Source: Fomes fomentarius (Eukaryota > Basidiomycota > Agaricomycetes > Polyporales > Polyporaceae). From it: a stretch of DNA of 64,000 nucleotides. Of this stretch, positions 24,835 to 52,430 are shown piece after piece (position 1 is the first letter of the stretch; every line of letters begins with the position of its first letter). Made by a program: the position numbers and the translations under genes. The DNA lies in NCBI GenBank assembly GCA_022606135.1, contig JABYQN010000019.1, forward strand, positions 186,001-250,000, written 5' to 3'. The notes under the pieces were generated by a model. That model did no database searches. It saw nothing but the letters and a program-made list of their open reading frames with translations, and was not told the DNA's origin.

Positions 24835-25181
24835 TTGCACCTGAGGACGTAGTGCATTTTGGACTCTTTGTCTGTGGCCTTCGCCTGCCAGGGGTGAACT
24901 CGAGTGTGATGTGGACGACCTTGCAGCCGGCTACGACGTATTGTACTGCCTAATATACCCTAAAAATGTCGCAGATGTCCAGGTAATGTCAGTCGGAGAC
25001 ATCCCGTCGGGATCATGTTTGTGGACTCAAGGACCCGTGACATCGAGATGAACCCGCCACCGTCAATTTGTTGACTATCTTGTAGCCTGCACCCGAGCTT
25101 AGACATGATGAAAGTTGAATTAATAGAAAATAAAGAATACTAACCAGAAACGGTAGGCTTGCGGAGTCTGACTTCAGACAT
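24835..25181 (-). pseudogene. chk1 5' fragment, arm L
   Basis: Starting at an ATG (25,181) with MSEVRLRKPTVSG, this follows the first exons of the complete chk1 at 57,654: exon 1 of the same 37 nt (25181-25145), a relic of exon 2 (GYKIV, glycine loop) and part of exon 3 up to the ELIGSAK region. Exon 2 lacks one base relative to the intact gene, breaking the frame, and everything 3' of about residue 110 is absent. It lies in the same orientation relative to the neighbouring 7-TM gene as in the parental locus. Confidence 0.75.
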
Positions 25182-26197
25182 TGTGTCGGCCTGTGGGAGA
25201 GAAGGAAGAGAGACGCGCGACGCGTAACTCCTGTACGCGCGTGGTGTCACGGTACACGTGCAAGCTGAACTTGTCCCACTCGGTCTATCGCACGACGCGG
25301 CGGCCGCTCGACAACTTATTCCTGTTCTTATGCGTCCTCGGACTGCTTCAAACGTCTCGCTCAGGTCTAAGTCAACAACCAAGCCCTATCGTTAACGACC
25401 CTGAACGCCGACATACTGACTCCGAGCAAACGCGTGGATAAACCCCGCCGAATTCAAGTCTGGCAGAACCGGGGTGGGTTAGGGGCCCTGAATTTCTATC
25501 CACCCTCACCCAGGCATATCTCCGTTCTGCTATTGTCCCGATTCTCATTACGTGCCGGCCTCTAGGGAGTCGCAATGCTTTGACTGGGCCATGTCAGACG
25601 TAATGCTATACCTGGGTCTGCGACGTACCAGCTCACAAGCGACGGCAAACGAACAACACTCCGACTCCGAAATTCCCGCAAACGATTCACTGTTTAAGTG
25701 AGAACGCTCGCCGTCAATTGAAAATGTTCCGAGACATTCTCTCTCGCGCGGTCGTCCCTGCAGCAGTTCCTTGGGCCGCACCTTCCTGTCAAATCAATGC
25801 GCACGAACCGCGGGCGCGACATCGGAATTTCAGTCCGGACTAGCATGCATCCGCCGTTTACGACATGGTTACTTATCAGTTGAAGCCGGGAGCCGGGACT
25901 AGACGGACAGTGCTGTCATCACTGATAGAGTCGTGTCGACCTGGGTGAGCGGCCCCGTAATGCTCATTGCTCTTGCGTCCTGCCCCCTCCTGCCCTCTAC
26001 TTCCACTCGTGACGATCGACTCTTTGCCTCGTCCGCTCCCTCGTAACACTGTTTCTTGGGTCCCTTGCAGTTCATCGCGGAAGCAGCGCTTGTATCACAG
26101 GCTCGGATCGCCCTATATTCCTTAACCTGATCCGGCATCGACTCGACAGCCGTCCGAGTCCAGCAAGAACAGGAGGAGCAGGAGGAGCAGGAGCAAG
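25182..26197. promoter_or_regulatory. Divergent promoter region, arm L copy
   Basis: Between the chk1 relic and the 7-TM start; related to 51,071-52,103 (arm R) and to 57,655-58,811 (parental). Kept blocks include CGCGCGACGCGTAACTCCTG-like sequence near the chk1 ATG and ACGATCGACTC plus AGGAGCAGGAGCA near the 7-TM start. All three copies keep the start codons about 1.0-1.15 kb apart. Confidence 0.6.
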
Positions 26198-28461
26198 ATG
26201 GTAGACTGGCAGGACCCGGCGGTGGTCGCGTACAACTTCTTCCTCTACGAGCAGATCGCCGTCTTCTTACTAGGCTTCTATGGGTGAGTCTCTACTACGG
26301 GGTCTTCGCGATCCCGCACCCACGTACACTGACGAACCATCCCCCTCCTCCCTCCTAAAATGCAACTTAAAACGCGGATCGGCGATGGGATGCAGGACGG
26401 CGTTTGTGCACAGCCTGAACGTCGAGTGGGAGCTCATCACACGCAGGCGTGCGTTCCGCTTCATCCATGGGCTGTACCTCCTCGCGCGGTACATCACCCT
26501 CGCCGCGCTTCTGTTCTTGTAAGTGCCTCCTGTCGTGCTCTCCATATGCAGTTGTGCACCCCGGCCCCGTGCGGTCAGATCTTCAAAGCGCTGACGCGCG
26601 CGCACAGCGTGATCACAGGGCGATTGAAGAACCGGATTGCTTGCGACTGTGCGTATATCTGCTCCATGACCATCGAATGCTACGTTGTGCTCGCACTGAC
26701 GGGAACGCGTTGCAGCCGCATACCGGACATTTGCTGTGGGGTTTCCACGCGCGCACCATGTGACCTGCCGAAATTGACTGCTCCGCTTTCCAGAGTCTCG
26801 GCAGTCTTGCAGCGATGCTCGCGAGTCTAATCCTGGGCTCCAGACCGTACGTTCTCCTCCTGGCCTCATCAAGTGTGTTGTACTTGACGCGCCCCTCCCA
26901 GCGCGGCGATCTTCTGGACATTCAGGTCGTACATCCCTCTCGTGCTCCTCGGAGTCCTAGCTCTGGGACAGGCCTTCCTCGTAGTTTTCCGTACGTGCGC
27001 CCCGGTCTTGTACTCCCAACCCGAATGTCTCCTCCCGCGCGCGTCAGGATATCGCTGATCACCGGTATGTTTCTCCCTGGTCTTCAGAGGGCATCACGGT
27101 GGTGCACGCAATATGGGACGAAGTGCATTCGAAGTGTATCGCGTACACATGGGACACCACCGTCCTCGCGATCTTCTACTTTTACAGTGCGTCTTCATTC
27201 TCAAAGCCTTCCCTCCCTGCTCCATCAGACGCATCTCAGGAGAGAAGCATAATGCTGACATTGAAGCATCCCTTGCGCGGGTAGCGTTTGCCTACGACAT
27301 CGTCATACTCCTCCTGACGCTCTACGCGGTCCGGCGCGTGCACCGCGAGCAGATGCACAAACGCTGGGGGTCGGAGACATCCTGTGCATCCAGGGCATCG
27401 GGTACGTCCTCGTCACCTGCCTCGTGAACGTCCCTGTTGCGGTCCTCGCAATCCTCGACCTCAACGGTACGCATCTTATCTACAACTTATTTACCTTCTT
27501 CCTTTCTGAGCCGGAGATGGCGCTGACGCGAACAACCGCAATCGGAATCGACGTCGCGGTCGCGCGCACACGTTCACACATGCAGCTGGCATGGACGTCC
27601 TGCTCTCCTTGCCCGCGATGACAACCAGGTATGTTCTCTACTCCTTCTCATCCTTCTCCGATCCAGCCTCACTCATTCCTCGTCCTCTTCCTAATCAAAC
27701 CGAACGCTCGCGTCTATCTTGCCTCTACCCCCGGGTCTGGTGGGCTATGTCTGTCTATATTTTGTTATACATACAGCGTGATCGCGTCCTCTTTCGCGCT
27801 CCTCAGTCTCGACGAGTTCGGGCACAAGTCCAAGCACCCAAAGTACGCCTCCCGTCCGCGGTCGCGGTCCCGCAGCACACCGAATCCGACTGGAGGGGGC
27901 ATCCGGTCGTCGACGGAGCGCGCGTCTGGGCCAGACTATGGGACTGTTTCGACGCATATCCCGATGACGTTTTTGTGAGTTCTCCTGCTTGTTTGGGATA
28001 TGTTCCTATTCCCTCTATGTACATGCCGTGTCCGTTTGCGCAGTGGGAGCGAACTCTCCCGAGACTCGCTCTCGTGTGTGTCCAGTCGCTGGGAGGGGAG
28101 AAACCGCTGTGCCCAGGCATCCGAGCGGCCATGGGCCTCATTGACGGTTCCTGAGAGTCGTTCCGGCGACCTCGGCGCGGGGAGCTCGCTCTCGGCTGGA
28201 CGAGGGAACCGTGCGGCCTGCTCTGCTCTGGCATCCCGCATTCGTAACAGCTACTAGTATCATCACATGCTGACCTGGAACGGGAACCAACTATACAGGC
28301 CCACCGACTCGGTCGAGGTGCCCGACCACGACCTCGCCAACTTTGAATTTGCGCACGATGCCGTCGTCCAAATCGAGACCGTCGACCTCCCGAGTCCCCC
28401 GGGCCATGGTCATGGCCAGCTGCAGCATGAGCAGCCGTCGCTGTCGGTCTGTCTGCCTTAG
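26198..28461 (+). pseudogene. 7-TM membrane protein (DUF6533-like), arm L copy, frameshifted
   Basis: Eleven exons align with the intact paralogues: 26198-26283, 26396-26518, 26608-26648, 26716-26735, 26794-26846, 26902-26990, 27088-27186, 27285-27466, 27586-27628, 27777-27974, 28299-28461. Exon 8 is 182 nt instead of 183: a G-run (CGCTGGGGGTCGG, about 27,363) has five G where both paralogues have six, breaking the frame after HREQMHKRWG. All splice sites and the rest of the frame are intact, so the break is recent, a polymorphism or a homopolymer error. Predicted protein otherwise as for the arm R copy. Confidence 0.75.
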
Positions 28462-28752
28462 TCTAGAAGTAATGATTGGATGCGCGGTCGCCTTCCGCGT
28501 GACGGATGACAGGATCGCTTCGCAAGGGCCTCTACACTGTGCATACTACAGAACGGTAGGTCTACATGACGAAGCCGACGTTGCCAGAGAGAGTCTGGGA
28601 CGATCATGACCGTTCTGGAAGCATCAGCCATGTTTTGAATTATGGAGACTCAGACACCGTTGACGAGGGGATTGAAGCAAGGGGAGGTCGGGGAGTCTTC
28701 GATAGTATCATAGCCTTGGTTCGACGAGGCAGCGGTATTGTCCCTTGCGCGT

Positions 28753-29103
28753 CTACTTGTTGGCGGCATTGGCATCGGAGGCTGGATCTACCATGATGAC
28801 GCCGGCGTTGACAACCGCCTTGGGCTTCTCGGAATCTTCGCACAACATGACTTCCCAGGCGCCAGTGTCAACCACCTCACATAATTGAATAAGCAGCTTC
28901 CAAGGCCCCAAGCAACGTAGGAAAGACGCGGTACTTGAAGTTGCCGCTCGACGGTGAGCGCTGAGTAGAAGTAGAAACCGCGAGCCGCGATCCCGGGACC
29001 TGGACAGTGTCAACCATCTCCCGGAGATTCCGATCGTATTATATCCCTTTCTCTCGCAATGGTTTAATTGTCCCGACTGGCAGAGTGTCCGAGTATTATG
29101 CAT
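28753..29103 (-). CDS. Hypothetical ORF, possible 3' exon
   Basis: A 116-codon frame whose second half (IQLCEVVDTGAWEVMLCED, then KAVVNAGVIMV) reads like genuine protein and ends in a stop at 28,753. The arm R counterpart (about 48,176-48,520) is broken by an extra GCGAA-type insertion. No start or upstream exon was identified and no family recognised. Confidence 0.3.
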   Translation of the reverse strand: MHNTRTLCQSGQLNHCERKGYNTIGISGRWLTLSRSRDRGSRFLLLLSAHRRAATSSTASFLRCLGPWKLLIQLCEVVDTGAWEVMLCEDSEKPKAVVNAGVIMVDPASDANAANK

Positions 29104-29310
29104 GTGGCCAATGTGCCAGAGATTATCCTGTACAGGACGAGGACTGTACTGAAGGCCGTGCCAGCTCGAGTGATAAGATAGACAAGATTGAGGAAGGGAT
29201 TCGAAGGCCGTAGGGAATGGTGAGAGTAATGAATGGAGGTATAGAAAAGAGATGAGTATGTATTGTACAATGATCTATGTCTGAATGCCTGACTCTGTGA
29301 GAGACCAAGG

Positions 29311-29355
29311 ACGAGACGAGACGAGACGAGACGAGACGAGACGAGACGAGACGAG
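29311..29355 (+). repeat. ACGAG pentanucleotide microsatellite (9 units)
   Basis: Nine perfect ACGAG units. The matching site in arm R (47,911-47,930) has four CTCGT units. Confidence 0.95.
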
Positions 29356-29736
29356 ATGTGAGCGTCGGAAAATGAAATACGATTTGAGTAGGGGGAAGGA
29401 TATACACGGGAGATCTAGGATGACAGTGGCGGTAGTACTCCGTGTTAGGCCTTGGAGGCCCGTCGTGCTCGACAGAGATTCTGCTCAGGTGTAGGCCCAC
29501 AGCGAAGATGAAAAGCGTTTGCGGTGTGCTAACAGAGTTTCAGAATCGTACTATGGGATAGTGGTTCAAGTCCTGAGGCTGCCAGCATGGGAAAGAATGT
29601 GGTTGCAAGCAACTTGACTATCACTTCGTGCACTGAATCTGTCTTGCCGATGACGAATTTTAGCCTGAGAGAGTACTGGAGCTCGACCTGGAGTACATAT
29701 ATAACGACGGTAGCGGATGCGAAAGGAAAAGCTCAC

Positions 29737-29831
29737 CGTCATCCTTCCTGCACAAAACGTCGCTGAACCCTGCATCAGTACGGCGTTGCCCCTGTCGACG
29801 AGAGGAAGACACAACATAAGCAGTTCGGCAT
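29737..29831 (-). pseudogene. Relic of jacalin-type lectin exon 1 (arm L)
   Basis: From an ATG at 29,831 the strand can be aligned with exon 1 of the lectin at 31,060 (shared GTTGTGTCTTC, a GTCG core, TTcAGCGACAT, GGATGA and the donor GGTGAG), but it is 95 nt instead of 82 and contains in-frame stops. Later exons are not recognisable. It lies head-to-head with the lectin gene about 1.2 kb away. A 208-codon open frame (30,192-29,566) overlaps it in another reading and is shared with arm R only because the arms are nearly identical here. Confidence 0.55.
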
Positions 29832-30961
29832 CGTTCCTAAGCTCGAGGATAAAGGTGTAGCTAGGAGAAGTATGAGCTAGGGTACCAGAGATGTTAGAAG
29901 CGTAACGGGGGGCTTGCAGATCAGCCCACACCGAACCCCAGTGGCCGAAACTGCAGGTGCATGAATAGCCGTGATTCGAGCCGAGACGTGCGGTTGTCGC
30001 ACGTGTACGCTGGAATTGGAGGGGTACGAGAGGCATGAGCAGGTGCAGGTGCAGGGAGGTTCCATATGCCGCCATACTGGGGCATGCTATTCGACGTGTC
30101 TTGGTGGCCACGTTCAGCACAGCCTCATGAGAGCGATGGGGCGAAAGATGCTGACAGCGTCTTGCGGCGTGAATGCAGGCAGGGGGACGCATGGCGAATG
30201 TGAGTGCCAGTGGGAAGTTGCGCGTCTCTAGATCCGGTATTGCCTAGACCTTTGGGAGTGACTGTTATCCAACATGTACGTGGCAATGTTGTTCGAATCA
30301 TTGTAACAGTGGATTTAACAGGAAATGGGAGAACGGTATTCGGTAAACAACGGAATAGCAACTGACTGGTGGTCATGCACTCGACAAGTACCGCTCTGAA
30401 CGGGTGCCATGCTACTCTGAGGGATCTCATGTGTCAACCTCGTTGTTGAGGTGACGAGCATCGGTGACAGCATAGGTCCTTGTTGTATCATACATTTTCC
30501 CTAAAGTATCCCGAGTCTCGTAATTCATGCCGCCATCAGTGACAATACTTGACATGGCATCTATGTATCGTGCCTGTCTGAGTAGTAAGCGCGTTCAATT
30601 GAAGACTCAGGGAGTGCGTGCTAAAAGGCATTCAATACGACGGTCTGGGTACTCCGGGCGTTTGCCAGCTGGTTAAGGATATCAACCTCCAACTTCCAAT
30701 GCCACACGTGCGCCCTTTGGCGCCAACGGCGGTTGTCTCTTACCAAACTCTGAGATCTGAACGTCGAACGTAAAGGACGCTCCTGACTGTGACGTTAATG
30801 ACGGGCGCGATTACCACACCCACCTTCAATGCACTGATCTATCTCGGGTCACTCCCTGTTCCAGCGCACCTGCACGTCGACCTCACCCCATTAGCAAGTT
30901 TGCATGCTTTTTTTCACGGATCCCGAATTAAAGCGGCGCGCCAGATGGCATGGTTGCAACG

Positions 30962-30968
30962 TATTTAA
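30962..30968 (+). promoter_or_regulatory. TATA-like box of lectin (arm L)
   Basis: TATTTAA 98 bp upstream of the lectin ATG. The same heptamer lies 101 bp upstream of the ATG in the intact 54-kb lectin and at the mirrored place in arm R. Confidence 0.6.
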
Positions 30969-31059
30969 GACTCGGGAGAGCTGCCAGCATCTTCAGTGTC
31001 TCAGCACTACCCAGCCCTCGTCTTCTAGTTCTCTACTCCTCAGTCGTTCCTCAGCAACA

Positions 31060-32015
31060 ATGTCGGCCTACGTTGTGTCTTCTCTTGTCGGTGGCGACGA
31101 CGGTGACAAGTTTAGCGACATCCTTTACATGAAGGATGATGGTGAGAGTCTTGCCCTCACCCACAATACCCATTATACACTGATCTCACATCTTGTCTGC
31201 TGTGTCCTCAAGGTAACTTCATTCTCAACAACAAAGGTTCGTCCCACTCTCAACCGAGTCGACATCATACTCTGCTTACTATCTATCTCAATACCACGTA
31301 GCCAAGGACACGCTTGACGTCGACCATCCTATCAACGAGATCCACTTGCGCATTGGGCCCAATGTTTGTTTCCGGCCCCATGACTCACTGCGGCAATTAT
31401 GACAACTCGCTGTTATCTGTGTCTCCAGCTCACCTATATCGCCATCGAGTACCAGCTAGCCAACGGCAGTACCACCAAGCTTGTGCATGGAACTAAGCTC
31501 GAAAGCGATGATGTCACTATTGTCCACCTTAAGGGTGGGTATTCATTTCCTACGAGCTCACCGTATGAGTATCTGTGCCAGCGAGACATTATTAAACGGC
31601 CACTGTAGCGAAGGAATCACTCGTTAAAGTATATGGCCGTGTTAGTGCTGAGACGGATGTGGAAGGTGCATGTGTCATCCAGATTGCATTTCCCCACCAA
31701 GGACAAGGTGACCGAAATCACTCGTGAGCATGGCGTAAGTTGTCCATTCGTTTCAGAACAGGTCAACAGGTAGAATTGACACAACTCTTGGTGCTGTAGC
31801 CGTTCGGCTCCAACAGCACCGAGGGTACCAATGAGTTCTCCAGCTCAGAATCCGGCGGTTTCCTCGCTTTTGGCGGGTTCGTCACGAAGGGTCATAATTG
31901 TACGTATCGTTTCTCGCCCTGCAAACACACCTATCACCAGATCATCTGACATGTTCTTGCCCACCAAGCTGCTCTCTCCGGCCTCTTCTTCCTCAACAAG
32001 AAGGTGCCCTTCTGA
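31060..32015 (+). pseudogene. Jacalin-type lectin, arm L copy (frameshifted in exon 5)
   Basis: Seven exons matching the intact lectin at 54.1 kb in number and phase: 31060-31141, 31213-31236, 31302-31363, 31429-31534, 31609-31734, 31800-31899, 31969-32015. Jacalin-like features: VVSSLVGG near the N-terminus, LTYIAIEYQLANG, VHGTKL, SLVKVYGR, PFGSNSTEG and LAFGGF. Exon 5 is 126 nt instead of 125 because of an extra C in TTTCCCCACC (about 31,690), leading to a TGA a few codons on. The equivalent exon in arm R lacks this insertion. The promoter tract upstream appears identical in both arms. Confidence 0.8.
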
Positions 32016-32224
32016 AGGGCGGAGAGCCGGACACGCGACCTCAGGCTGTGCTGTTCCTCGTTTATGATCTCAGATGTCTGTAAATGCCGTTTGCAAGAGC
32101 GGCAGTGCCTTCGAATAGGATGATTGACTTGTCTTTGATAGATAGTGGGAGGGCCACTGCTCGCTGACTACTAGTGCCAGATTCTACCGACTGCCACTTG
32201 TTGTACGATGAGAAAGTAGTACAG

Positions 32225-33110
32225 GGTCCGGCTCCGCTGGTACCTGGCGTCCGAGTCCGAGTCGCCTCGGGATCTGGAACTGTTATGACGCACATCCCGA
32301 TGACGTTGTTGTAGGTCTAAGTCCTCCTGTGCTCGATCGGAATCTGTTTGCTCCTGTCCCCTGCCAGTGTGGTGTCACAGTGGGAGCGAATCTAGGAAGA
32401 TTCGCTTTTGGGCGTGTCCAGACTCCCCTGTAATTCCTGCCACTTCGACTTCGACTTCGAGCTGCCTATCTTGGAGGTGCTATTGACTCCATTGATGGTT
32501 CCTGAGAGTCGCTCCGGTGGCCTCGGTGCGGGCAGCTCGCTCTCGGCGGGGACGACTCAGACCCGTGACAAGGGAATTGTGCAACTTGTTACGCTCCCAG
32601 GCATGCCACGATTCTTTCCGTTCATAACAGCTGCTGACCTGAAATCCACGACAGCAGGCCCAGCGACTGGGTCGAGGCCCTCGACGATGACAATGTCGTC
32701 AACGTTGCAGGCAAGGATGCAGCCCGTCCACATTGAGAACATCGACAGGCTCCCTCCCTTGCGCCGTGAGCTCAGGCAACCTGAGCAGAGTGTGTGATCG
32801 CAGCGCTACGTACATACACTCACGCGTCCGCAGTTTGTCTCATTTTGATGACGTATGCGTGAGTCCTTCCCGTTCACTGTTCAGAATATGGCGTATGTAT
32901 GACAGGATCGTTCTGAAAGTGCTGTCACCCATGTATGCAATTACGTCATCGTGGTTGTCGTGCGCTTTGCTCAGACCCGCATTCGTTTCACCACGTTCCA
33001 AGTCCAATAGTGTCTCGTTGTCTTGTCCAATGGCTAATTGCTGTGTCATCGCTGGTATACTGTTTTTCTATGTTATCTGTAACCGTTTGTGATCCCGGGA
33101 GACCGCAGAT
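32225..33110 (+). pseudogene. 3' fragment of 7-TM gene (exons 10-11 and 3' flank), arm L
   Basis: Starts inside exon 10 (TVMTHIPMTLL then GTAGGT in place of the GTGAGT donor), continues through the long last intron and the last exon (QPVHIEN, LRRELRQPEQSV, stop at about 32,797), and the 3' flank with CGCTTTGCTCAGACCCGC. The same order is found at 60,510-61,290 in the intact gene. The upstream nine exons are missing. Confidence 0.65.
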
Positions 33111-33177
33111 TCGATGAGTGTCGTGGAGGACAATGTGACGTCGAGTTTGTGGCGTGGTGAGCTATAGTTTGACCAAT

Positions 33178-33651
33178 CTAGTACGTGATGAAACATACGT
33201 CGTCTCTTTCGTCACGGTTCTTGTGTCGTGGGCAGACGGGTAACGACGCGTAATCTGGTTTCTGCGCGATTGGTAGGACGAATGAACGGTTCAACCTGGA
33301 GATGATAGAGCAGCCTCTGTTAATTCTGTCGGTCAGTTTGGGAGAGATGCAAGGCCATACAGGTTGTAAGCAGGTCTTTGAAAAATGTAAGACACTGTGG
33401 CGCATCATAACAAGGGCGGCCCAATCATTCACAAGTGGCGAGGAGGACGATGTGAAGTCGATTTTGAGGCATGGTGGGACACTGGGCGTCTCGATCACCG
33501 TCGCGGGTGGGTAAGACAATGGACTTCCGGTGAAGGCGGGCGTAGTGACAGGGCCAGGAGCCAAATACACCGGCGCGGGTGTCCTACATACTACATAAGG
33601 GAAAGGGGTTGACCTTTTGAACACATAGGAGAACATGGGTGGAATGCTCAC
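33178..33651 (-). CDS. Conserved ORF of unknown function, arm L
   Basis: A 157-codon frame with Pro-rich start (CRTPAPV, TTPAFTGSPLSYPP, IETPSVPP), then LKID, a SSSPLVN strand-like segment and PVWPCISPKLTDR. The same frame is open in arm R (42,954-43,685, 243 codons) despite many substitutions between the arms here, which is mild evidence of past coding constraint. No domain recognised; splice structure unknown. Confidence 0.35.
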   Translation of the reverse strand: MSIPPMFSYVFKRSTPFPYVVCRTPAPVYLAPGPVTTPAFTGSPLSYPPATVIETPSVPPCLKIDFTSSSSPLVNDWAALVMMRHSVLHFSKTCLQPVWPCISPKLTDRINRGCSIISRLNRSFVLPIAQKPDYASLPVCPRHKNRDERDDVCFITY

Positions 33652-35214
33652 CTTTGAGAGTTCGGGTCATCGTAACTACGAGTCGTGCATCCTACATGAC
33701 AGCACCAAAGTCGGTGCTACCACTTGGGTGGGACAGCATCGTCCCCATATACCACTCATCGTTGTAGAGTTCATCGAGGCCCAAAGACGCGTAACCAGCC
33801 AATGGACATGCAGTCCATTTCCTCTTTGATGTATCGAGGCTTGCGAGTGAGGATTTGTAGTCCAGAGTGCGTCTCCGAGAGGTTCGAGAGTATGTGGAAT
33901 CGTGCGTACGACGTCCGGGTTAAGAGAAAGCCTAGTGGACAATGCGAAGCAGCGTAAGAAGTTGCGTAAGAACTACGTCTCCTTTAGACTATAATTAGAG
34001 CCTGGCTGCACCGGATTTCCAACCCAGATACAGCCAAAACTTCTGGACTCTTCTGAAACTGCCCAGGTGACCCAGCCGCGCTGGATTCGGGAACTGCAGT
34101 TCCAGATGATTGTTTTGCAGGCACCGGTTGGCTCTCATGGAGATCCGCCCCACTGCCATGGCTTACGATCGCTCGCGTTGCGTCGTGTTGTTCCTTCTGT
34201 ACTAATAGTATGCCGCTCATGGTATACCTGCCTTTTCCTTTACGTGAATGTTAACATCCCACCTTCCCGGACATTTACATTCATCCCCTTCTTTCACTCC
34301 TTTGTGAACTGTTTTTACACACTATGTCATTCAACTATGAATCGACGAGATAGAGATAGTACATCTGCTCTCCGAGTCGGTTCATGAACATTTGAGCTTC
34401 AGTTACCTTCTCCCTCATTATGATCCTTGAGTCATACTAGTGGTAGTCTGAAACCGACACGGCTTCCTAGTGCACGCTGAAACGGCCCCTTGTAAGCCTT
34501 CAAAGTGTACACAGTGTGCTGATGCTTGGGTGCTAGTTGCTGCCACTCATTAGATTGAAGAGCTCCTGGCGACAACTTGAAAGAGTACTGATAGTGGCAG
34601 TAGAGGTAACTCAACAACTCAAGTCATTTAGGATCATCCGCAGATGAGATTTTGCGACTACTATTCAGTACACTACTACCTATGTGACATGCATCATGGG
34701 ATCCCGCGACCTATCGAGGAACGCGTAAATTTGAATTCACCCGAATCCTTGAAACCCGATCTAGACACCCAGGCCCTACTTAAGGTATGCTCTTTGTGCG
34801 GATATCGAGCATACATGCCACTCTGCTGTGAGCTTCAGCAGCCGAGATTCCCGATCTATCGAGGGTTTACGTAAGGGAATGTCGCGAAGCTATGTACGTC
34901 GTGTCAAGCACTGTGCCAGGGACGGGATATGCATAACGCGCACAACGCCTCGGATGAGACCTTTTATGCACTCATGACAGATCAGTCCGATACATCTCAT
35001 AGCGAAACGAGTGCAGAACTCAGTCAAGATGACCGACGGGACTCGGAGAGAGACAGACGTAGGATAAATTCCCGGAGTGGTGATCACCATGTACCTGCCA
35101 GTGGAAGAGGAGGAGGTACACAAGATTCAGACGAGAGGTAGTACTAGGCGCGCTTTATGTGGCATACATACCACATATGCAGTGCTTAATTCCGGGAACT
35201 TGGTACTTATTAAA

Positions 35215-35450
35215 GCTCCGCAGTGCGATACAACTGACAATGGTATGCCCGGGATGGGCGAGTGACAACTGACGACTGACGACTGACTCGACTCGACTCC
35301 TCACGGTGAGTGAACTTTGAGCCACGAATCTTCCCCCAGCCCTGCCAGGGATCTCCCACAGACATATTCGACAGCGCGTGAGAGCGGACGTCGTCACCTC
35401 AAGTTGCACCGTTCCCGACATGCACATTGCACGACCGTCGACTCTCGGCC
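35215..35450 (+). repeat. Dispersed repeat, copy in arm L
   Basis: Contains ATGCCCGGGATGGGCGAGTG, GACATATTCGACAGCGCGTG and GAGCGGACGTCGTCAC. Related copies: the mirror in arm R (41,510-41,730) and a third in direct orientation inside the spacer (37,025-37,215). No coding content recognised. Confidence 0.65.
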
Positions 35451-36104: not shown

Positions 36105-36114
36105 CCCCCCCCCC
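36105..36114 (+). repeat. C10 homopolymer (arm L)
   Basis: Ten C; the mirrored site in arm R is a run of 22 G. Confidence 0.9.
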
Positions 36115-41500: not shown

Positions 41501-41940
41501 GTCGACGGTCGTGCAATGTTGCATCTCGGGAACGGTGCAACCTGAAGTGACGGCGTCCGCTCTCACGCGCTGTCGAATATGTTTGTGGGAGATCCTGGGG
41601 CAGGGCTGGGGGAAGATCCGTCGCTCAAAGTTCGCTCACCGTGAGTCGTCGAGTTCGAGTCAGTCGTTACTCGCCCATCCCGGGCATACCAATTGTCAGT
41701 TGTATCGCACTGCGGAGCTCTGATACGTACCAAGTTCACGGAATCAAGCACTGCATATGTGGTATGTATGCCACATATAGCGCGCCTACTACCTCTCGTC
41801 CGAATCTGTGTTCCTCCTCCTCTTCTACCGGCAGGTACGTGGCAATCACCACTCCGGGAATTTATTTTACGTCTGTCTCTCTCCGAGTCCCGCCGGTCAT
41901 CTTGACTGAGTTCTGCACTCGTTTCGCTATGAGATGTGTC

Positions 41941-41955
41941 GTTAGGGTTAGGGTT
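41941..41955 (+). repeat. Interstitial telomere-like repeat
   Basis: GTTAGGGTTAGGGTT, two and a half TTAGGG units, sits between GAGATGTGTC and GATCTGTC. The arm L counterpart (about 35,000) has no such repeat at this point. TTAGGG is the usual telomere repeat of basidiomycetes. Confidence 0.7.
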
Positions 41956-42651
41956 GATCTGTCATGACTGCCCTGCGCGTTATGCATATCCGCCGTCCCT
42001 GGCACAGTCCTTGACACGACGTACATCAGTGGCACACTGTGTACAGTCCGAAGGCTTATAAGAGCCCATCTCAGCGTGCACTATGAAGTTGTGTCGGTCT
42101 CAAACTACTACTAAAGTTATGACTCAAGGATCATAACGAGGGAGAAGGTAACTGAAGTTGAAACGTTCATGAAACGAGAGCTGATGTGTGTAGTATATAC
42201 CCTGATACGAGTCTAGGTATCTGAGTAGATACTACTATCTCTACCTCCTCGGTTCATAAATCATTGACATGGTGTGTAAGGACAGTTCAAAAAGAAGTCA
42301 AAGAAGAAGATGAATGTACATGTTTGGGAAGGTGGGATGTTATCGTTCACGTAAAGGACAAGGCAGGTATACCACGAGCGGCATACTATTAGTACATAAG
42401 GAAGAGCATGATGCGATGCGAGCCAGCATGGGCCATGGTAGTGGGGCGGATCTCTCTGAGAGCCAACTGGTGCCTGCCAAAAACTCATCTGGAAATGCAT
42501 TTCCCAAGTCCAGTGCAGCTGGGGTCACCTGGGCAGATCCAGAAGAGTCCAGAAGTTTTGGCTGTATCTGGGTTGGAAATCTGGTGCAGCCAGGCTCTCA
42601 TATAGTCTAAAGGAGACGTAGTTATTACACAACTTCTTACGCTGCTTCGCA

Positions 42652-43685
42652 TTGTCCACTAGGCTTTCTCTTAACCCAGATGTTGTACGCTCGCTCCACA
42701 TACTCTCGAACCTCTCGGAGACGCACTCTGGACTACGACTCTTTACTTGCAAGCCTCGATACATTAAAAAGGAAATGGACTGCATGTCATTGTGTGGTTG
42801 TGCGTCTTTGGGCCTCGATGAACTCTACGACGATGAGTGGTACATTGCGATGATGCTGTCTGACCGAAGTGGTAGCACGTACTTTGCTGCTGTGCATGTA
42901 GGATGCACAAGTAGTTACGATGACCCGAACTCTCAAAGGTTAGCATTCCACCCGTGTTCTCCTACGTGTTCAAAAGGTCAACCCCTTTCCCTTATGTAGT
43001 ATGTAGGACACCTGCACCGGTGCAATCGGCTCCTCGCCCTGTCACTACGCCCGCCTTCACCGGAAGTCCATTGTCTTACCCACCTGCAGTGATCGAGACG
43101 CCCAGTGTCCCACCACGCCTCAAAATCGACGTCACATTGTCCTTTTCGCCACTTGTGAACTATCGGGACGCCCTTGTTATGATGCGCCACAGAGTCTTCA
43201 CGGGGAGTCGCGAACCCATACATTCTTTTAAGACCTGCTTACCACCTGTATGGCCTTGCATCTCTCCCAAACTGACTGACAGAATTTACAGAGGCTGCTT
43301 TATCATCTCCAGATCGAACCGTTCGTTCGTCGTACCAATCCACGCAGAAGCCAAATCATGCATCTTTAGTACCCTGCCCATGGCATTCCTAAGTGCAATA
43401 CCCGCGACGAAAAAACGAGGTATGTTTCATCACGTACTCAATTGGCGAAAGTATAGCTCACCACACCACAAACTCAACATCACATTGTCCTCCACAGCAC
43501 TCGTAGAGTTTACGGCCTCCCGGGATTGCAAACAGTTACAGATAGAATGGAAAAAATGTATACCAGCGATGACACAGCAAATAGCCATTGGACAAGACAA
43601 CGAGACGCTATTGGACTTGGAACGCGAAGGCGGGTCCCAGCAAAGCGCACGACAACGACGACACCGTGATTGCGTACATGGGTGA
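42652..43685 (+). CDS. Conserved ORF(s) of unknown function, arm R
   Basis: Two overlapping open frames, 42,652-42,999 (116 codons; LYDDEWYIAMMLSDRSG, FAAVHVGCTSSYDD) and 42,954-43,685 (243 codons; relative of arm L 33,178-33,651). They may be exons of one gene; a junction was not settled. The end of the second frame runs antisense through the 3' flank of the 7-TM fragment, so its last 40 codons are probably not coding. No family recognised. Confidence 0.35.
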
Positions 43686-44200
43686 CAGCACTTGCAGAAC
43701 GATCCTGTCATACATACGCCATATTCCAAACAGCGAGCGGGAAGGACTCACGCATACATCATCAAAGTGAGACAAACTGCAGACGTGTGAGTGTATGTAC
43801 GTAGCGCCGCAGTTACACACTCTGCTCAGGCTGCCTGAGCTCACGGCGCAAGGGAGGGGGGTCGAAGTTCTCAATGTGGATGGGCTGCGTCTTGTCTGCA
43901 AGGTTGACGACATCGTCGTCGTCCGAGGCCCTCGACCCAGTCGCTGGGCCTGCTGTCGTGGATTTCAGGTCAGCAGCTATTATGAACGGAACGAATCGTG
44001 GCATGCCTGGGATCGTAACAAGCTGCACAACTCCCTCGTCACAGGTCCGAGTCGTCCCCGCCGAGAGCGAGCTGCCCGCACTGAGGCCGCCGGAGCGACT
44101 CTCAGGAACCGTCAATGGAGTCGATTACAGTTCCGAGATAGGCAGCTTGAAGTCGAAGTCGAAGTGGCAGGAATCACAGGGGAGTCTGAGCACGCCCAAA
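43600..44200 (-). pseudogene. 3' fragment of 7-TM gene, arm R
   Basis: Mirror of 32.4-33.1 kb: last exon (LPPLRRELRQPEQSV, stop about 43,813) and 3' flank. The exon-10 part is lacking because the sequence beyond about 44,232 is replaced. Confidence 0.6.
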
Positions 44201-44231
44201 AGCGAATCTAGGAAGATTCGCTCCCACTGTG

Positions 44232-45031
44232 ATAGCCTTGTCGTGCGAAGATTCAAGTTCAAGTTCAAGGTGGTTCAACCAAGGCGCACGCGTTCGCCGG
44301 TAATACACTGTGCCCGTCTTAAGTGTGCGACTCGGACTCAGACACCACGCATGCAGCTGCCCCTCAAGCTGCAAACGAGCCGTATTAGTTGCGAGCGAAG
44401 CGAGCATACCCCATAAGCTTAAGATCTTAAGATCTTAAGACCTTGGGCGATTTGCATTTCACGCGCCCAAAGTTCCCATAAAATGTGCATTTCCTGTCAG
44501 AGTCATCCTATAAATGCACGCACCTATTGATAACTATGACATACATATCTGTCGCAACCTTGAGGACAAAGGCATCATGTATGCGTGTGCTACGGGGGAA
44601 TGAGTAAGAAATGTCTGTCCAACGTCCCTAGACGCCCATCCGCGTCAAAGCGGACACAATACTTGAACACTGTCAGGACGCCCACTCGCCCGTAGGCAGC
44701 TTGAATTGTGAGCTATTCCAAGCATCCCTGTACCCCTTCGTTAAATCCGTGAGTGCAGACATAGCAAGCAGCCCATCCTAACGGAGACTAGTAGTACTGG
44801 ACAGACGCAGCACAAGACCGTTGAACGTTCAACTTGAATGGCACTGCCAATGGCACCCAGGTTGGATATCCGCGCAGGGACAATCCGACTAAGCGGTCAA
44901 GGGTCTTTTCATACCACGTTGTGATCAGCATACATCTGAACCAGTAACATGTTGACTCGGGACTCGCGGACGGGCGCTGTTGTTGGTAGTGCAGTTAGTA
45001 GCCAAATTTGCTGCTGTATGCGGGCGTGTTA
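44232..45031 (+). mobile_element. Non-homologous block in arm R carrying a dispersed repeat
   Basis: Arm similarity stops after CCCACTGTGA (44,232) and resumes at GGTACCAGCGG (45,031). Here arm R has about 800 bp where arm L has about 136 bp. Most of the block (44,245-44,955) is a relative of spacer 39,975-40,470 in direct orientation. No protein or clear terminal repeats seen. Transposon insertion with deletion, or a recombination scar, are both possible. Confidence 0.45.
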
Positions 45032-45260
45032 GGTACCAGCGGGGCCGGACCCTGTACTACTTCCTCCTCGCACAGCAAGTGGCAGTCGGTAAAATCTGGC
45101 AGTAGCAGTCAGCGAGCAGTGGCCCTTACACCATTTCTCAAAGACAAGTCAATCATCTTATTCGAAGGCACTGCCGCTCTTGTGAACGGCATCTACAGAC
45201 ATCTGAGATCATAAACGAGGAACAGCACAGCCTGAGGTCGCGTGTCTGGCTCTCTGCCCT

Positions 45261-46203
45261 TCAGAAGGGCACCTTCGTCTACTTGCTGAGGAAGAAGAGG
45301 CCGGAGAGAGCAGCTGGGTGGGCAAGAACATGTCAGATGATCTGGTGATAGGTGTATTTCCAGGGCGAGAGATAATACGTACCATTATGACTCTTTGTGA
45401 CGAACCCGCCAAAAGCGAGGAAACCGCCGGAGTTTGAGTATGAGAACTCATGAGTACCGCTGGAGCCGAACGGCTACAGCACCAAGAGTTGCGTCAATTC
45501 TACTTGTTGACCTGATCTTAAACGAGTGGACGACTTACGCCATGCTCACGAGTAATTTTGGTCTCGTTGTCCTCGGTGGTAAATCCAATCTGGGTGACAC
45601 GTGCACCTTCCCCATCCGTCTGAGCACTAATGCGGCCGTATACCTTAACGAGCGATTCGTTCGCTACAGTGGCCGTTAGATAATGTCTCGCCAGCACCGA
45701 TACTCATACGGTGAGCTCGTAGGAAATGAATACCCACCCTTGAGTTTCACAATAACGACATCATCGCTTGTGAGCTTGGCTCCATGCACAAGCTTGGTGG
45801 TACTGCCGTTGGCTAGCTGGTACTCGATGGCGATATAGGTGAGCTGTGAGACACAGATAACAGCGAGTTGTCAGAATCGCCGCGGTGAGTCATGGGGCCG
45901 GAAACAAACGGTGGGCCCAATGTGCAAGTGGATGTCGTTGATAGGATGATTGACGTCAAGCGTGTCCTTGGCTACGTGGTATTGAGATAGATAGTAAGCA
46001 GAGTATGATGTCGACTCGGTTGAGAGTGGGACGAACCTTCTTTGTTGAGAATGAAGTTACCTTGAGGACACAGCAGACAAGATGTGAGATCAGTGTATAA
46101 TGGGTATTGTGGGTGAGGGCAAGACTCTCACCATCATCCTTCATGTAAAGGATGTCGCTAAACTGTCGCCACCGACAAGAGAAGACACAACGTAGGCCGA
46201 CAT
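45261..46203 (-). pseudogene. Jacalin-type lectin, arm R copy (10-nt deletion in exon 1)
   Basis: Counterpart of 31,060-32,015 with the same exon order. Exon 1 (from ATG 46,203) has lost 10 nt relative to arm L (GGCGACAGTTTAGCG here), so the frame shifts after about residue 13 and meets a stop within exon 1. Exon 5 lacks the extra C that disrupts arm L. The last exon has a premature TAG before the mirrored stop. Broken independently of the arm L copy. Confidence 0.78.
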
Positions 46204-46294
46204 TGTTGCTGAGGAACGACTGAGGAGTAGAGAACTAGAAGACGAGGGCTGGGTAGTGCTGAGACACTGAAGATGCTGGCAGCTCTCCCGAGTC

Positions 46295-46301
46295 TTAAAT
46301 A
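46295..46301 (-). promoter_or_regulatory. TATA-like box of lectin (arm R)
   Basis: TATTTAA on the minus strand at the mirrored place, about 95 bp before the broken lectin ATG. Confidence 0.55.
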
Positions 46302-47431
46302 CGTTGCAACCATGCCATCTGGCGCGCCGCTTTAATTCGGGATCCGTGAAAAAAAGCATGCAAACTTGCTAATGGGGTGAGGTCGACGTGCAGGTGCGCT
46401 GGAACAGGGAGTGACCCGAGATAGATCAGTGCATTGAAGGTGGGTGTGGTAATCGCGCCCGTCATTAACGTCACAGTCAGGAGCGTCCTTTACGTTCGAC
46501 GTTCAGATCTCAGAGTTTGGTAAGAGACAACCGCCGTTGGCGCCAAAGGGCGCACGTGTGGCATTGGAAGTTGGAGGTTGATATCCTTAACCAGCTGGCA
46601 AACGCCCGGAGTACCCAGACCGTCGTATTGAATGCCTTTTAGCACGCACTCCCTGAGTCTTCAATTGAACGCGCTTACTACTCAGACAGGCACGATACAT
46701 AGATGCCATGTCAAGTATTGTCACTGATGGCGGCATGAATTACGAGACTCGGGATACTTTAGGGAAAATGTATGATACAACAAGGACCTATGCTGTCACC
46801 GATGCTCGTCACCTCAACAACGAGGTTGACACATGAGATCCCTCAGAGTAGCATGGCACCCGTTCAGAGCGGTACTTGTCGAGTGCATGACCACCAGTCA
46901 GTTGCTATTCCGTTGTTTACCGAATACCGTTCTCCCATTTCCTGTTAAATCCACTGTTACAATGATTCGAACAACATTGCCACGTACATGTTGGATAACA
47001 GTCACTCCCAAAGGTCTAGGCAATACCGGATCTAGAGACGCGCAACTTCCCACTGGCACTCACATTCGCCATGCGTCCCCCTGCCTGCATTCACGCCGCA
47101 AGACGCTGTCAGCATCTTTCGCCCCGTCGCTCTCATGAGGCTGTGCTGAACGTGGCCACCAAGACACGTCGAATAGCATGCCCCAGTATGGCGGCATATG
47201 GAACCTCCCTGCACCTGCACCTGCTCATGCCTCTCGTACCCCTCCAATTCCAGCGCACACGTGCGACAACCGCACGTCTCGGCTCGAATCACGGCTATTC
47301 ATGCACCTGCAGTTTCGGCCACTGGGGTTCGGTGTGGGCTGATCTGCAAGCCCCCCGTTACGCTTCTAACATCTCTGGTACCCTAGCTCATACTTCTCCT
47401 AGCTACACCTTTATCCTCGAGCTTAGAAACG

Positions 47432-47526
47432 ATGCCGAACTGCTTATGTTGTGTCTTCCTCTCGTCGACAGGGGCAACGCCGTACTGATGCAGGATTCAG
47501 CGACATTTTGTGCAGGAAGGATGACG
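47432..47526 (+). pseudogene. Relic of lectin exon 1 (arm R)
   Basis: Mirror of 29,737-29,831, same 95-nt length and same stops. Surrounded by an open frame (47,071-47,712) in another phase that is probably fortuitous. Confidence 0.5.
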
Positions 47527-47910
47527 GTGAGCTTCTCCTTTCGCATCCGCTACCGTCGTTATATATGTACTCCAGGTCGAACTCTTGTACTCTCTCAGGC
47601 TAGAATTTGTCATCGGCAAGACAGATTCAGTGCACGAAGTGATATTCAAGTTGCTTGCAACCGCATTCTTTCCCATGCTGGCAGCCTCAGGACTGGAACC
47701 ACTATCCCATAGTACGATTCTGAAACTCTGTTAGCACACCGCAAACCTTGACGCTTTTTATCTTCGCTGTGGGGCCTACACCTGAGCAGAATCTCTGTCG
47801 AGCACGACGGGCCTCCAAGGCCTAAAAACTACCGCCACTGTCATCCTAGATCTCCCATGTATATCATTTGCCCCCTACTCAGATCGTATTTCATTTCCCG
47901 ATGCTCACAT

Positions 47911-47930
47911 CTCGTCTCGTCTCGTCTCGT
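47911..47930 (+). repeat. CTCGT pentanucleotide microsatellite (4 units)
   Basis: Contracted counterpart of the 9-unit array at 29,311-29,355. Confidence 0.9.
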
Positions 47931-48836
47931 CCTTGGTCTCTCACAGAGTCAGGCATTCAGACATAGATCATCGTACGGTACATACTCATCTTTTTTCTAT
48001 ACCTCCATTCATGACTCTCACCATTCCCTGCGGCCTTCGAATCCCTTCCTGAAACCTCGTCTATCTTATCACTCGGGCCGACATGCATGCTCCGCACGAT
48101 TTGGCACGGCATTCAGTACAGTCCTCGTCCTGTACAGGGTAATATCTGGCACGTTGTCTCCGTCTTGCTGACCACATGCATAATACTCAGCACACACTCT
48201 TCCAGTCGGGACATTTAAAACATTGCGAGAGAAAGGTACACTACGATCGGAATTTCCCGGAAATGGTTGACACTGTCCAGGTCCCGGGACTGCGGTCGCC
48301 GTTTCTGCCTCTACTCAGCGCTCACCGTCGAGCGGCAACTTCAAGTGCCGCGTCTTTTCTAAGTTGCTTGGACCCTTGGAAGCTGCTTATTCAATTATGT
48401 GAGGTGATTGACACTGGCGCCTGGGAAGTCATGTTGTGCGAAGCGAAGATTCCGAGAAGCCTAAGGCGGTTGTCAACGCTGGCGTCATCATGGTAAATCC
48501 AGCCTCCTGACTTCCGATGCCAATGCCGCCAACAAGTAAACGCGCAAGGGACAATACCGCTACCTCGTCGAACCAAGGTTATGATACTATCAAAGACTTT
48601 CCGACCTCCCCTTGCTTCAAGCCCCTCGTCAACGGTGTCTGAGTCTCCGTAATTCAAAATATGGCTGATGCTTCCAGAACGGTCATGATCGTCCCAGACT
48701 CTCTCTGGCAACGTCGGCTTCGTCATGTAGACCTACCGTTCTGTAGTATGCACAGTGTAGAGGCCCTTGCGAAGCGATCACGATCATGTCACCCGTCATG
48801 CGGACGGCGACCGCGCATCCAATCAATACTTCTAGA

Positions 48837-51070
48837 CTAAGGCAGACAGACCGACAGCGACGTCTGCTCAAGCTGCAGCTGGCTATGGCCATAGCCCGGG
48901 GAACTCGGGGGGTCGCCGTTCTCGATTTGGACGACGGCATCGTGCGCAAATTCAAAGTTGGCGAGGTCCTGGTCGGGCACCTCGTCCGAGTCGGTGGGCC
49001 TGTACAGTGGTTCCCGTTCCAGGTCAGCATATGATAGTAGCTGTTACGAACGAGAGTGGAGCATCACAGGCCGCACATTTCCCTCGTCCAGCCGAGAGCG
49101 AGCTCCCCGCACCGAGGTCGCCGGAGCGACTCTCAGGAACCGTCAATGAGGCCCATGGCCGCTCGGATGCCTGGGCACAGCGGTTTCTCCCCTCCCAGCG
49201 ACTGGACACACACGAGAGCGAGTCTCGGGAGAGTTCGCTCCCACTGTGCAAACGGACACGACATGTACAGGGAACAGGATCAGATCTCAAACAAGCAGGA
49301 GAACTCACAACGACGTCATCGGGATATGCGTCGAAATAGTCCCGTAGTCCGACCCAGACGCGCACTCCGTCGACGACCGGATGCCCCCTCCGGTCGCATT
49401 CGGTGTACTGCGGGACCGCGACCGCGGACGGGAGGCGGATTTTGGGTGCTTGGACTTGTGCCCGAACTCGTCGAGACTGAGGAGCGCGAAAGAGGACGCG
49501 ATCACGCTGTATATAACAATATATAGACAGACATGGCCCACCGGACCCGGGGGTAGAGGAAAAGGTAGACGTGAGCGTTTGGTTTGATCAGGAAGAGGAC
49601 GAGGAATGAGTGAGGCTGGATCGGACAAGGATGAGAAGGAGTAGAGAACATACCTGAATGTCATCGCGGGCAAGGAGAGCAGGACGTCCATGCCAGCTGC
49701 ATGTGTGAACGCGTGCGCGCGACCGCGACGTCGATTCCGATTGCGGTTGTTCGCGTCAGCGCCATCTCCGTGACAGAAAGGAAGAAGGTAAATAAGTTGT
49801 AGATAAGACGCGTACCGTTGAGGTCGAGGATTGCGAGGACCGCGACAGGTACGTTCACGAGGCAGGTGACGAGGACGTACCCGATGCCCTGGATGCACAG
49901 GATGTCTCCGACCCCCCAGCGTTTGTGCATCTGCTCGCGGTGCACGCGCCGGACCGCGTAGAGCGTGAGGAGGAGTATGACAACGTCGTAGGCAAACGCT
50001 ACCCGTGCAAGGGATGCATCAATCTCAGTACTGTATGGGATGCGTCTGACGGGGAAGGCTCTGGAAATGAAGACGCACTGTAAAAGTAGAAGATCGCGAG
50101 GACGGTGGTGTCCCATGTGTACGCGATACACATCGACTGCACTTCGTCCCATATCGCGTGCACCACCGTGATGCCCTCTGAAGACCAGGGAGAAACATAC
50201 CGGTGATCAGCGATATCCTGACGCGCGCGGGAGGAGATATTCGGGTTGGGAGTGCGAAAGCGGGGCGCACGTACGGAGAACTACGAGGAAGGCCTGTCCC
50301 AGAGCCAGGACTCCGAGGAACGCGAGAGGGATGTACGACCTGAATGTCCAGAAGATCGCCGCGCTGGGAGGGGCGGGTCAAGTACAACACACTTGATGAG
50401 GCCAGGAGGAGAACGTACGGTCTGGAGCCCAGGATGAGACTCGCGAGCATCGCTGCAAGACTGCCGAGACTCTGGAGAGCGGAGCGGTCAGTTTCGGCAG
50501 GTCACATGGTGCGCGCGTGGAAACCCCACAGCAAATGTCCGGTATGCGGCTGCAACGCGTTCCCGTCAGTGCGAGCACAACGTAGCATACAATGGTCATG
50601 GAGCAGATATACGCACAGTCGCAAGCAATCCGGTTCTTCAATCGGCCTGTGATCACGCTGTGCGCGCGCGTCAGGGCTTCGAAGATCCGACCGCACGGGG
50701 CCGGGGTGCACAAGTGCATATGGAGAGCACGACAGGAGGCACTTACAAGAACAGAAGCGCGGCGAGGGTGATGTACCGCGCGAGGAGGTACAGTCCATGG
50801 ATGACGCGGAACGCACGCCTGCGCGTGATGAGCTCCCACTCGACGTTCAGGCTGTGCACAAACGCCGTCCTGCATCCCATCGCCGATCCGCGTTTTGAGT
50901 TGCAATTTGGGAGGGAGGAACAGGATGGTTGGTCATGGTTCGTGGCTACGGGATCGCGAAGACCCCGTAGAACTAGAGACTCACCCATAGAAACCTAGCA
51001 AGAAGACGGCGATCTGCTCGTAGAGGAAGAAGTTGTACGCGACCACCGCCGGGTCCTGCCAGTCTACCAT
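48837..51070 (-). CDS. 7-TM membrane protein (DUF6533-like), arm R copy, intact
   Basis: Eleven exons in phase: 51070-50985, 50869-50747, 50657-50617, 50549-50530, 50471-50419, 50363-50275, 50177-50079, 49998-49816, 49696-49654, 49506-49309, 48999-48837; 365 residues. N-terminal MVDWQDPAVVAY then a TM helix, the basic-loop motif RRRAFR, a run of further hydrophobic helices (LYLLARYITLAALLFL; SYIPLVLLGVLALGQ; DIVILLLTLYAVRRV; ILCIQGIGYVLVTCL), the DVLLSLPAMTF segment and LDEFGHKSKHPK start of a hydrophilic tail. This is the layout of the seven-helix DUF6533 family abundant in mushroom-forming fungi, function unknown. Exon 8 has the six-G run that arm L lost. The last intron is 309 nt, longer than the others. 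The promoter is shared with a truncated chk1 copy. Confidence 0.78.
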
Positions 51071-52103
51071 CTTGCTCCTGCTCCTCCTGTTCCTCCTGTT
51101 CTTGCTGGACTCGGGCTGCTGTCGAGTCGATGCCGGATCAGGTTAAGGAATATAGGGTGATCTGCGATACAAGCGCTGCTTCCGCGATGAACTCCGAGGG
51201 ACCCAAGAAACAGTGTTGCGAGGGAGCGGACGAGGCAAATAGTCGATCGTCAGGAGTGGAAGTAGAGGGCAGGAGGGGGCAGGAGGGCAAGAGCAATGAG
51301 CATTACGGGGCCGCTCACCCAGGTCGACACGACTCTGTCAGTTATGACAGCACTGTCCATCTAGTCCCGGCTCCCGGCTTCAACTGATAAGTAACCATGT
51401 CGTAAACGGCGAAAGCATGCTAGTCCAGACTGAGATTCCGAGGTCGCGCCCGCGCCTCGTGCTTCGACAGGAAGGGGCGGCTCAAGGAACTGCTGCAGGG
51501 ATGACCGCGCGAGAGAGAGAATGTCCCCGAAATTTTCAATTTAGGGCGAACGTTCTCACTCAACAGTGAATCGTTGGCGGGAATTTCGGAGTCGGAGTGT
51601 AGTTCGTTTGCAACCGTCGCTTGTGAGCTGGTACGTCGCGGAACCAGATATAGCATTACGTCTGACATGGCCCAGTCAAAGCATTGCGACTCCCTAGAGG
51701 TCGGCACATAATCAGAATCGTGACAATAGCAGAACGGAGATATGCCTGGGTGAGGGTGGATAGATATCCAGGCCCCCTGCCTGTCCTGACCCCGGTTCTG
51801 CCAGACTTTAATTCGGGGGGTTTATCCACGCGTTTGCTCGGAGTCAGTATGTCGGCGTTCAGGGTAGTTGACGATAAGGCTTGGTTGTTGACTTAGACCT
51901 GAGCGAGACGTTTGAAGCAGTCCGAGAACGCATAAGAACAGGAATAAGTTGTCGAGCGGCGGCCGCGTCGTGCGATAGACCGCGACGCCCCGAGTGTGAC
52001 AAATTCAGATTGCACGTGTACCGTGACACCACGCGCGTACAGGAGTTACGCGTCGCGCGTCTCTCTTCCTTGTCTCTCTCCCACAGTGACACAGGCCGAC
52101 ACA
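51071..52103. promoter_or_regulatory. Divergent promoter region, arm R copy
   Basis: Mirror of 25,182-26,197, visibly about 95% alike in the part nearest the 7-TM start. May still drive the intact 7-TM gene on the minus strand. Confidence 0.55.
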
Positions 52104-52430
52104 ATGTCTGAAGTCAAACGCCGCAAGCCCACCGTTTCTGGTTAGTATTCTTTAAATCTATCAACTCACCTTTTATTATGTCTAAGTTCGGGTGCAAGCT
52201 ACAAGAAAGTCAACAAATTGGCGGTGGCGGGTTCAACTCGATGTGGGTCCTTGATTCAAGAAACATGATCCCGGCGGACTGACATTACCTGGACATCTGC
52301 GACATTCTTAGGGTATATTAGGCAGTACAATACCTCGTAGCCGGTTGCAAGGTCGTCCACATCACACTCGAGTTCACCCCAAGTAGGTGAAGGCCATAGA
52401 TACAGAGTCCACTACGTCCTCGGGCGTACA
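52104..52430 (+). pseudogene. chk1 5' fragment, arm R
   Basis: From ATG 52,104: exon 1 (MSEVKRRKPTVSG), a GTTAGT donor as in arm L, exon 2 with the same one-base loss as arm L (GTCAACAAATTG), part of exon 3, then similarity stops. The lesion shared with arm L shows that the fragment was already broken when the inverted duplication arose. Confidence 0.72.

Follow-up and report, generated by a model that had tools for sequence, protein, structure and literature searches.

Inverted segmental duplications of gene clusters are a known general kind of rearrangement, and the palindromes of the human and ape Y chromosomes are known for gene conversion between their arms. A palindrome with arm-to-arm gene conversion is also described for a willow sex chromosome (PMC7023750). 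Among fungi, the account of chromosome 14 of Zymoseptoria tritici describes a large palindrome flanked by two Copia-type long terminal repeats (LTRs) within an insertion on an accessory chromosome (PMC3681731), and the mating-type (MAT) loci of Cryptococcus are described as holding inverted pheromone-gene copies, for which the authors propose inversion loops and, subject to confirmation, repair by gene conversion (PMC12510652). Here we describe an inverted repeat in the basidiomycete Fomes fomentarius, located in a 64-kb stretch of contig JABYQN010000019.1 (C19:186,001-250,000; hereafter the window). Its left (L) and right (R) arms surround a spacer and carry copies of a gene labelled 7-TM (seven-transmembrane), copies of a jacalin-like lectin gene and the 5' end of the checkpoint-kinase gene chk1; a third copy of this unit (U3) lies further to the right (Table 1). 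No published description of the locus was found among the titles and abstract starts listed from an open-licence library, which is no proof of its being unpublished.

The locus has much in common with these systems. It shares with inverted segmental duplications in general a multi-gene block reversed beside its source, truncated genes at the edges and later decay, although here the source is itself already a copy. Like the Y and willow palindromes it has long inverted arms and a tract in which they are much more similar than elsewhere; its arms, however, are mostly 83-95% identical, one tract is clear, and the locus has no known sex-chromosome or mating-type location. The Z. tritici palindrome is likewise large, nuclear and fungal, whereas the arms here are gene-bearing copies of a host locus and not an LTR-flanked insertion. 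The Cryptococcus copies are also inverted and basidiomycete, but there the genes encode pheromones, and the genes here are jacalin-like lectins and a 7-TM gene whose family has no name. The kind of event is already known, and this is a real but ordinary local duplication. Judged from the sequence, the inverted repeat appears to be one of several successive copying events near lectin-like genes, on a stretch of contig that has other direct and inverted paralogue pairs, rather than a stand-alone palindrome, and we consider it probable that an unstable chk1/7-TM locus underwent serial segmental duplication, including one inverted duplication, followed by conversion between the arms.

The inverted repeat of ~11.5-kb arms is real. 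A preliminary description of this stretch had proposed reverse-complementary arms around a spacer of ~4.5 kb, and self-BLAST of the window, which contains no N and belongs to a genome of 40.9 Mb in 24 contigs (C19, 365,979 bases), bears this out. Five pieces of L match R on the minus strand: L 24,860-32,245 against R 52,411-45,031 (92.3%, 7,500 columns), L 32,375-34,370 against R 44,232-42,223 (86.7%), L 34,377-34,519 against R 42,177-42,032 (84.9%), L 34,892-35,730 against R 42,026-41,239 (84.6%) and L 35,796-36,251 against R 41,224-40,743 (83.3%). The three longest have an E-value of 0.0, far beyond chance. Both BLAST and global alignment place the gene-bearing blocks of the two arms in opposite orientation with their order kept. 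In the global alignment, paired L and R coordinates sum to 77,241-77,298 across L 24,951-32,201 and to 76,551-77,019 from L 32,201 to the arm end, the lower and drifting inner sums being due to large indels. The near-constant sums that had been claimed for the outer 8 kb thus hold for ~7.4 kb and fall away beyond. As for the gene content proposed earlier, the 5' piece of chk1 was confirmed, while the lectin can now be specified as jacalin-type and the 7-TM gene as lacking a Pfam family.

The order of events is suggested by U3, which had been overlooked in the preliminary description, as had a near-identical tract within the arms and further lectin-like genes on C19. U3 adjoins, on its left, the longest copy of chk1, and is collinear with L in direct orientation. 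Homology between L and U3 runs past the arm into the spacer in four pieces (36,520-37,947 against 62,012-62,689), a part that R lacks, and on the outer side it also extends beyond the end of R. Because this homology passes both ends of R, R is a subset of unit L. Three-way alignments of six segments all group L with R and place U3 outside. For the spliced 7-TM genes, synonymous divergence (dS) is 0.078 between L and R, with a nonsynonymous-to-synonymous ratio (dN/dS) of 0.29, compared with 0.228 between L and U3 and 0.269 between R and U3 (codons with gaps or stops left out). L and R hold only the first part of chk1, at 75-79% identity to the chk1 region of U3, and a frame-breaking gap relative to U3 is common to both arms (alignment, by eye). 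The chk1 copy beside U3 is likely complete, and one of its exons (56,739-57,008) has Chk1 as its top PDB matches (E 2.7e-18). The five places listed in a DNA search of the genome with 24.6-26.0 kb as query all belong to the array.

The history that we propose would begin at U3, the likely parent locus, with chk1 (minus) head to head with, and divergently oriented to, the 7-TM gene (plus). A direct copy of the chk1 5' end, the intergenic region, the 7-TM gene and downstream DNA would have produced unit L, which is probably a truncated direct copy with only the 5' end of chk1. Most of L (24.86-36.25 kb) would then have been copied in reverse 4.5 kb away, so that R is probably an inverted sub-copy of L. 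This assignment of parent, direct copy and inverted sub-copy is made because a long chk1 occurs only at the U3 end, with truncated pieces at L and R, and because of the homology limits. The reverse copying may have involved template switching in the course of break repair; this is a conjecture based on a single junction scrap, namely a 66-bp piece of arm sequence at the inner end of R, copies of which were listed in a genome search only here and in the two arms. The scrap suits template switching and is weak evidence for it; in yeast, template switching between short inverted repeats has been described (PMC8604942). Finally, the arms would have diverged, some genes would have broken, and a 1.46-kb tract would have been overwritten by gene conversion. 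The homology limits and relative divergence underlie the first three steps, and the substitution pattern the last.

Several observations weigh against this history, or against parts of it. Across the six segments, the L-R distance is between 0.13 and 0.63 of the L-U3 distance, and L-R divergence outside the tract is uneven (0.05-0.07 in the outer arms, 0.09-0.12 in the inner arms). A single clean age for R is not supported by this unevenness, to which earlier conversion or unequal rates may contribute. The 66-bp scrap, at 81% identity, is more diverged than the arms. A junction-like piece at 24,730-24,825 recurs at 62,618-62,711 (BLAST), which suggests either a further tandem unit to the right of U3, now lost, or another step. 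One exon of the longest chk1 copy (57,120-57,458) falls just below the Pfam cut-off for Pkinase (30.0 bits against 31.7; E 4.3e-7), and its PDB matches are weak, the best being an ankyrin design (E 0.0014), with the kinase SIK3 at E 0.0098. The relative ages come from one genome only. A two-age model, with outer and inner arms of different ages, was set aside because the L-R/L-U3 ratios vary too widely.

The final step of the proposed history rests on one tract within the arms. Its Kimura two-parameter distance (K2P) is 0.0028, compared with 0.052-0.121 in the other seven of eight arm segments, and it contains the longest perfect match between the arms (961 bases, L 30,138-31,098). The longest substitution-free run (1,084 columns, gaps ignored) compares with no more than 224 when columns were shuffled 10,000 times and no more than 341 when 50-column blocks were shuffled 2,000 times. 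Similarly, the fewest differences per 1,400 columns were 3, against at least 47 in 5,000 resamples of 100-column blocks from outside the tract. These segment counts and shuffles cover the arms up to 36,200 except 32,246-32,374 and 34,371-34,891, the shuffles using ungapped columns only. The tract spans DNA between genes, the presumed promoter of the lectin, its first exon and an intron. Selection explains the near-identity poorly, because intergenic DNA and an intron are included and because a 225-amino-acid (aa) open reading frame (ORF) overlapping the tract, the one tract ORF searched, had a single database match, from this same contig. A PDB search with ORF 29,569-30,243 gave no match. The simplest account is a recent gene conversion in which one arm was overwritten by the other, and the near-identity of the tract supports an exchange of sequence between the arms. 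The direction of conversion cannot be read, because U3 lacks this stretch, and the 10-bp indel within the tract would be later than the conversion.

An arm identity near 99% or more is the yardstick for homogenised palindromes, and the K2P values in the seven other segments put the arms short of it. Repeat-induced point mutation (RIP) is directed at CpA, whereas CpG decay leads to C/T changes before G. C/T differences between the arms were most frequent before G (73 changed and 652 unchanged sites, ratio 0.112), compared with 0.060-0.070 before A, C and T. Because of this enrichment RIP was rejected, and CpG-methylation decay is favoured. As a separate observation, the annotated gene C8Q74DRAFT_1222823 (29,488-30,075) may be a doubtful prediction, the ORF search having found no other protein.

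The same features could be read in other ways. If the assembly had joined two haplotypes of a dikaryon head to head, or had incorporated a chimeric read, the 83-92% identity of the arms could be allelic in a diverse dikaryon. We consider such an artefact highly unlikely. A head-to-head join is improbable because the left and right flanks should then be homologous, and they are not: between the left (<24.7 kb) and right (>52.4 kb) flanks no homology was found in the window or in a 134-kb stretch of C19, the nearest case being the boundary piece 24,730-24,825. Furthermore, R covers just a portion of unit L, there is a third collinear copy, a dispersed repeat is present in R alone, and one tract is almost identical in the two arms, with 5-9% divergence in the adjoining segments. 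The preliminary description had already argued from SNPs and indels that this is not a simple assembly duplicate, and the flanks, the subset relation and the R-only repeat point the same way. The conversion tract would also fit an actively maintained palindrome, in which the arms repair each other by conversion, as in Y palindromes, and the phosphatase-bearing spacer may flip. The lesions in the two arms do differ, with the 7-TM gene open in R and broken in L and the lectins broken at different places. However, there is only one clear recent tract, divergence is 5-12% over most of the arm length, and both lectins and one 7-TM copy are decayed in our own models, so that maintenance would be weak at best and this explanation is unlikely. 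It is doubtful indeed that the arms act as a mutual-repair pair, in which conversion would swap lectin promoter, lectin and 7-TM segments, crossing-over would flip the spacer, and strains would differ in their intact copy and in spacer orientation.

Two long inverted arms around a spacer, together with the dispersed repeat in R, might also recall a transposable element with long terminal inverted repeats. Yet the arms carry host genes with a truncated chk1 and match a host locus, no target-site duplication was evident at the junctions (by eye, no formal search), and when the genome was searched with 28.7-32.3 kb, L, R and the 66-bp scrap were the only places listed. No transposase domain was found in the 20 ORFs scanned (the window has 196 ORFs of 100 aa or more), and we give the transposon explanation next to no credence. 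Transcription through the arms could in turn yield self-complementary RNA, and chk1 5' sequence occurs in both arms, which would make the locus a source of double-stranded RNA silencing chk1 or the lectins. Such a role is very improbable, as both 7-TM copies point inward (L plus, R minus), each giving sense RNA, read-through must cross some 15-20 kb, and the chk1 relics match the chk1 region of U3 at only 75-79% identity. Serial duplication with a later conversion between the arms is the reading that we retain for the features collected in Table 1.

Table 1 Features of the inverted repeat, the third copy and their surroundings (window coordinates).
Feature	Position	Strand	Basis or remarks
Arm L	24,860-36,251	+	Pieces match R at 92.3, 86.7, 84.9, 84.6 and 83.3% (self-BLAST)
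Arm R, inverted copy of L	40,743-52,411	-	Self-BLAST; both ends fall within L-U3 homology
U3, older direct copy, likely parent locus	57,259-62,711	+	Collinear BLAST matches to L 24,730-37,947
Conversion tract in L	29,769-31,232	+	4 substitutions and one 10-bp indel in 1,454 aligned columns
Conversion tract in R	46,041-47,494	-	Counterpart of L 29,769-31,232
chk1, longest copy	55,500-57,654	-	Exon ORFs; starts at 57,654; 3' end approximate
chk1 5' relic in L, truncated, frame-broken	24,790-25,225	-	BLAST; outer limit by eye
chk1 5' relic in R	52,048-52,425	+	BLAST; outer limit by eye
7-TM copy in L, 10 exons modelled, frame-broken exon 8	26,198-27,978	+	Own gene model
7-TM copy in R, open, 312 aa	49,305-51,070	-	Own model, identical to annotated C8Q74DRAFT_1212350
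7-TM gene in U3, open, 316 aa modelled	58,812-60,550	+	Annotated as C8Q74DRAFT_1212368, 255 aa
Jacalin-like lectin in L, frame-broken exon 5	31,060-32,015	+	Own model; annotated as C8Q74DRAFT_1452905, 178 aa, other splicing
Jacalin-like lectin in R, frame-broken exon 1	45,264-46,203	-	Annotated as C8Q74DRAFT_1311375, 151 aa, later start
Third, distant lectin-like gene, between R and chk1	54,114-55,022	+	Exon-wise tblastn, right order, 24-54%, best E 1e-4
Spacer	36,252-40,742	.	4.5 kb; left part (36,520-37,947 pieces) belongs to unit L
Dual-specificity-phosphatase-like gene in spacer, 241 aa	38,302-39,027	+	PF22784, 50.4 bits, cut-off 27
66-bp scrap of arm sequence at R inner end	40,674-40,739	+	Like L 30,355-30,421, 81%
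Dispersed repeat in R, absent from L	44,463-44,793	.	Alignment insertion; matches C1, C2, C5, C6, C7, C11

The name 7-TM is a label from the preliminary description, which is the only source of the helix count. No Pfam family matched the R protein. DUF6533 (PF20151) was rejected as its family, the R protein having no match and the U3 protein scoring 15.1 bits against a cut-off of 24.1, and none of the 150 places among the matches listed in a PF20151 search was on C19. One relative of the protein is labelled a G-protein coupled receptor by its source; Pfam was the sole comparison with pheromone receptors. An inverted repeat for mating-type switching would have mating-type genes in the spacer or beside the arms; the gene seen in this spacer is phosphatase-like. 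A protein search with the R copy returned at least 22 rows (90% clusters), two from Fomes and 20 from 17 other species, 15 of which had one row each, and a local increase of the gene in Fomes is likely on this count. Elsewhere in the genome, C4:281,497-282,230 holds a copy of the 3' half of the L/R-type gene (82% to L/R, 68% to U3), beside a patch of local repeats, and C14:632 kb a more distant match to part of the gene.

The annotated R lectin scores 35.4 bits for PF01419, above the cut-off of 22, while the L lectin piece scores 19.2 bits and lies below it; the annotated L lectin has no Pfam family above cut-off. L contains a lectin gene and U3 does not. Further lectin-like relatives were found at ~C19:257.7-258.3, 263.5-264.2 and 272.1-272.8 kb, in mixed orientation, and these outlying genes are so named because of weak exon-wise matches alone. 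A PF01419 search of the fungus's own genome listed one place only, on C6, and neither the gene at 54,114-55,022 nor the three outlying C19 genes; perhaps such genes were missed because introns split them.

Across the 134 kb of C19 that were compared, further paralogue pairs, 300 bp or longer, occur in both orientations. Inverted pairs outside the array measure 0.8-1.3 kb, and the 11.5-kb arms are the largest in that stretch. Relatives of 33,119-35,084, mostly 70-76% identical, lie at C19:293 and 312 kb and match each other at 79-82% over ~3.4 kb; Pfam named none of eight ORFs (0/8) when the 33.1-35.1-kb stretch was approached through them. A 1.1-kb direct duplication (91% identical, offset ~5.8 kb) is present at C19:156,463-163,395, and 15,417-17,507 forms an inverted pair with C19:175.2-177.4 kb (77-79%), possibly an F-box gene (PF12937, below cut-off). 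The segment 40,572-40,671, beside the 66-bp scrap, has short matches on C14 and C15. An Rfam scan gave no match.

The locus would be a clear natural example, in the nucleus of a basidiomycete, of gene conversion acting on diverged inverted copies, and U3, as an outside copy, allows the events to be ordered. It would also show how a region grew by copying beside the checkpoint-kinase gene chk1, whose 5' end travelled along. If strains differ in the tract or in spacer orientation, it would become possible to measure how fast ectopic conversion proceeds in long-lived wood fungi.

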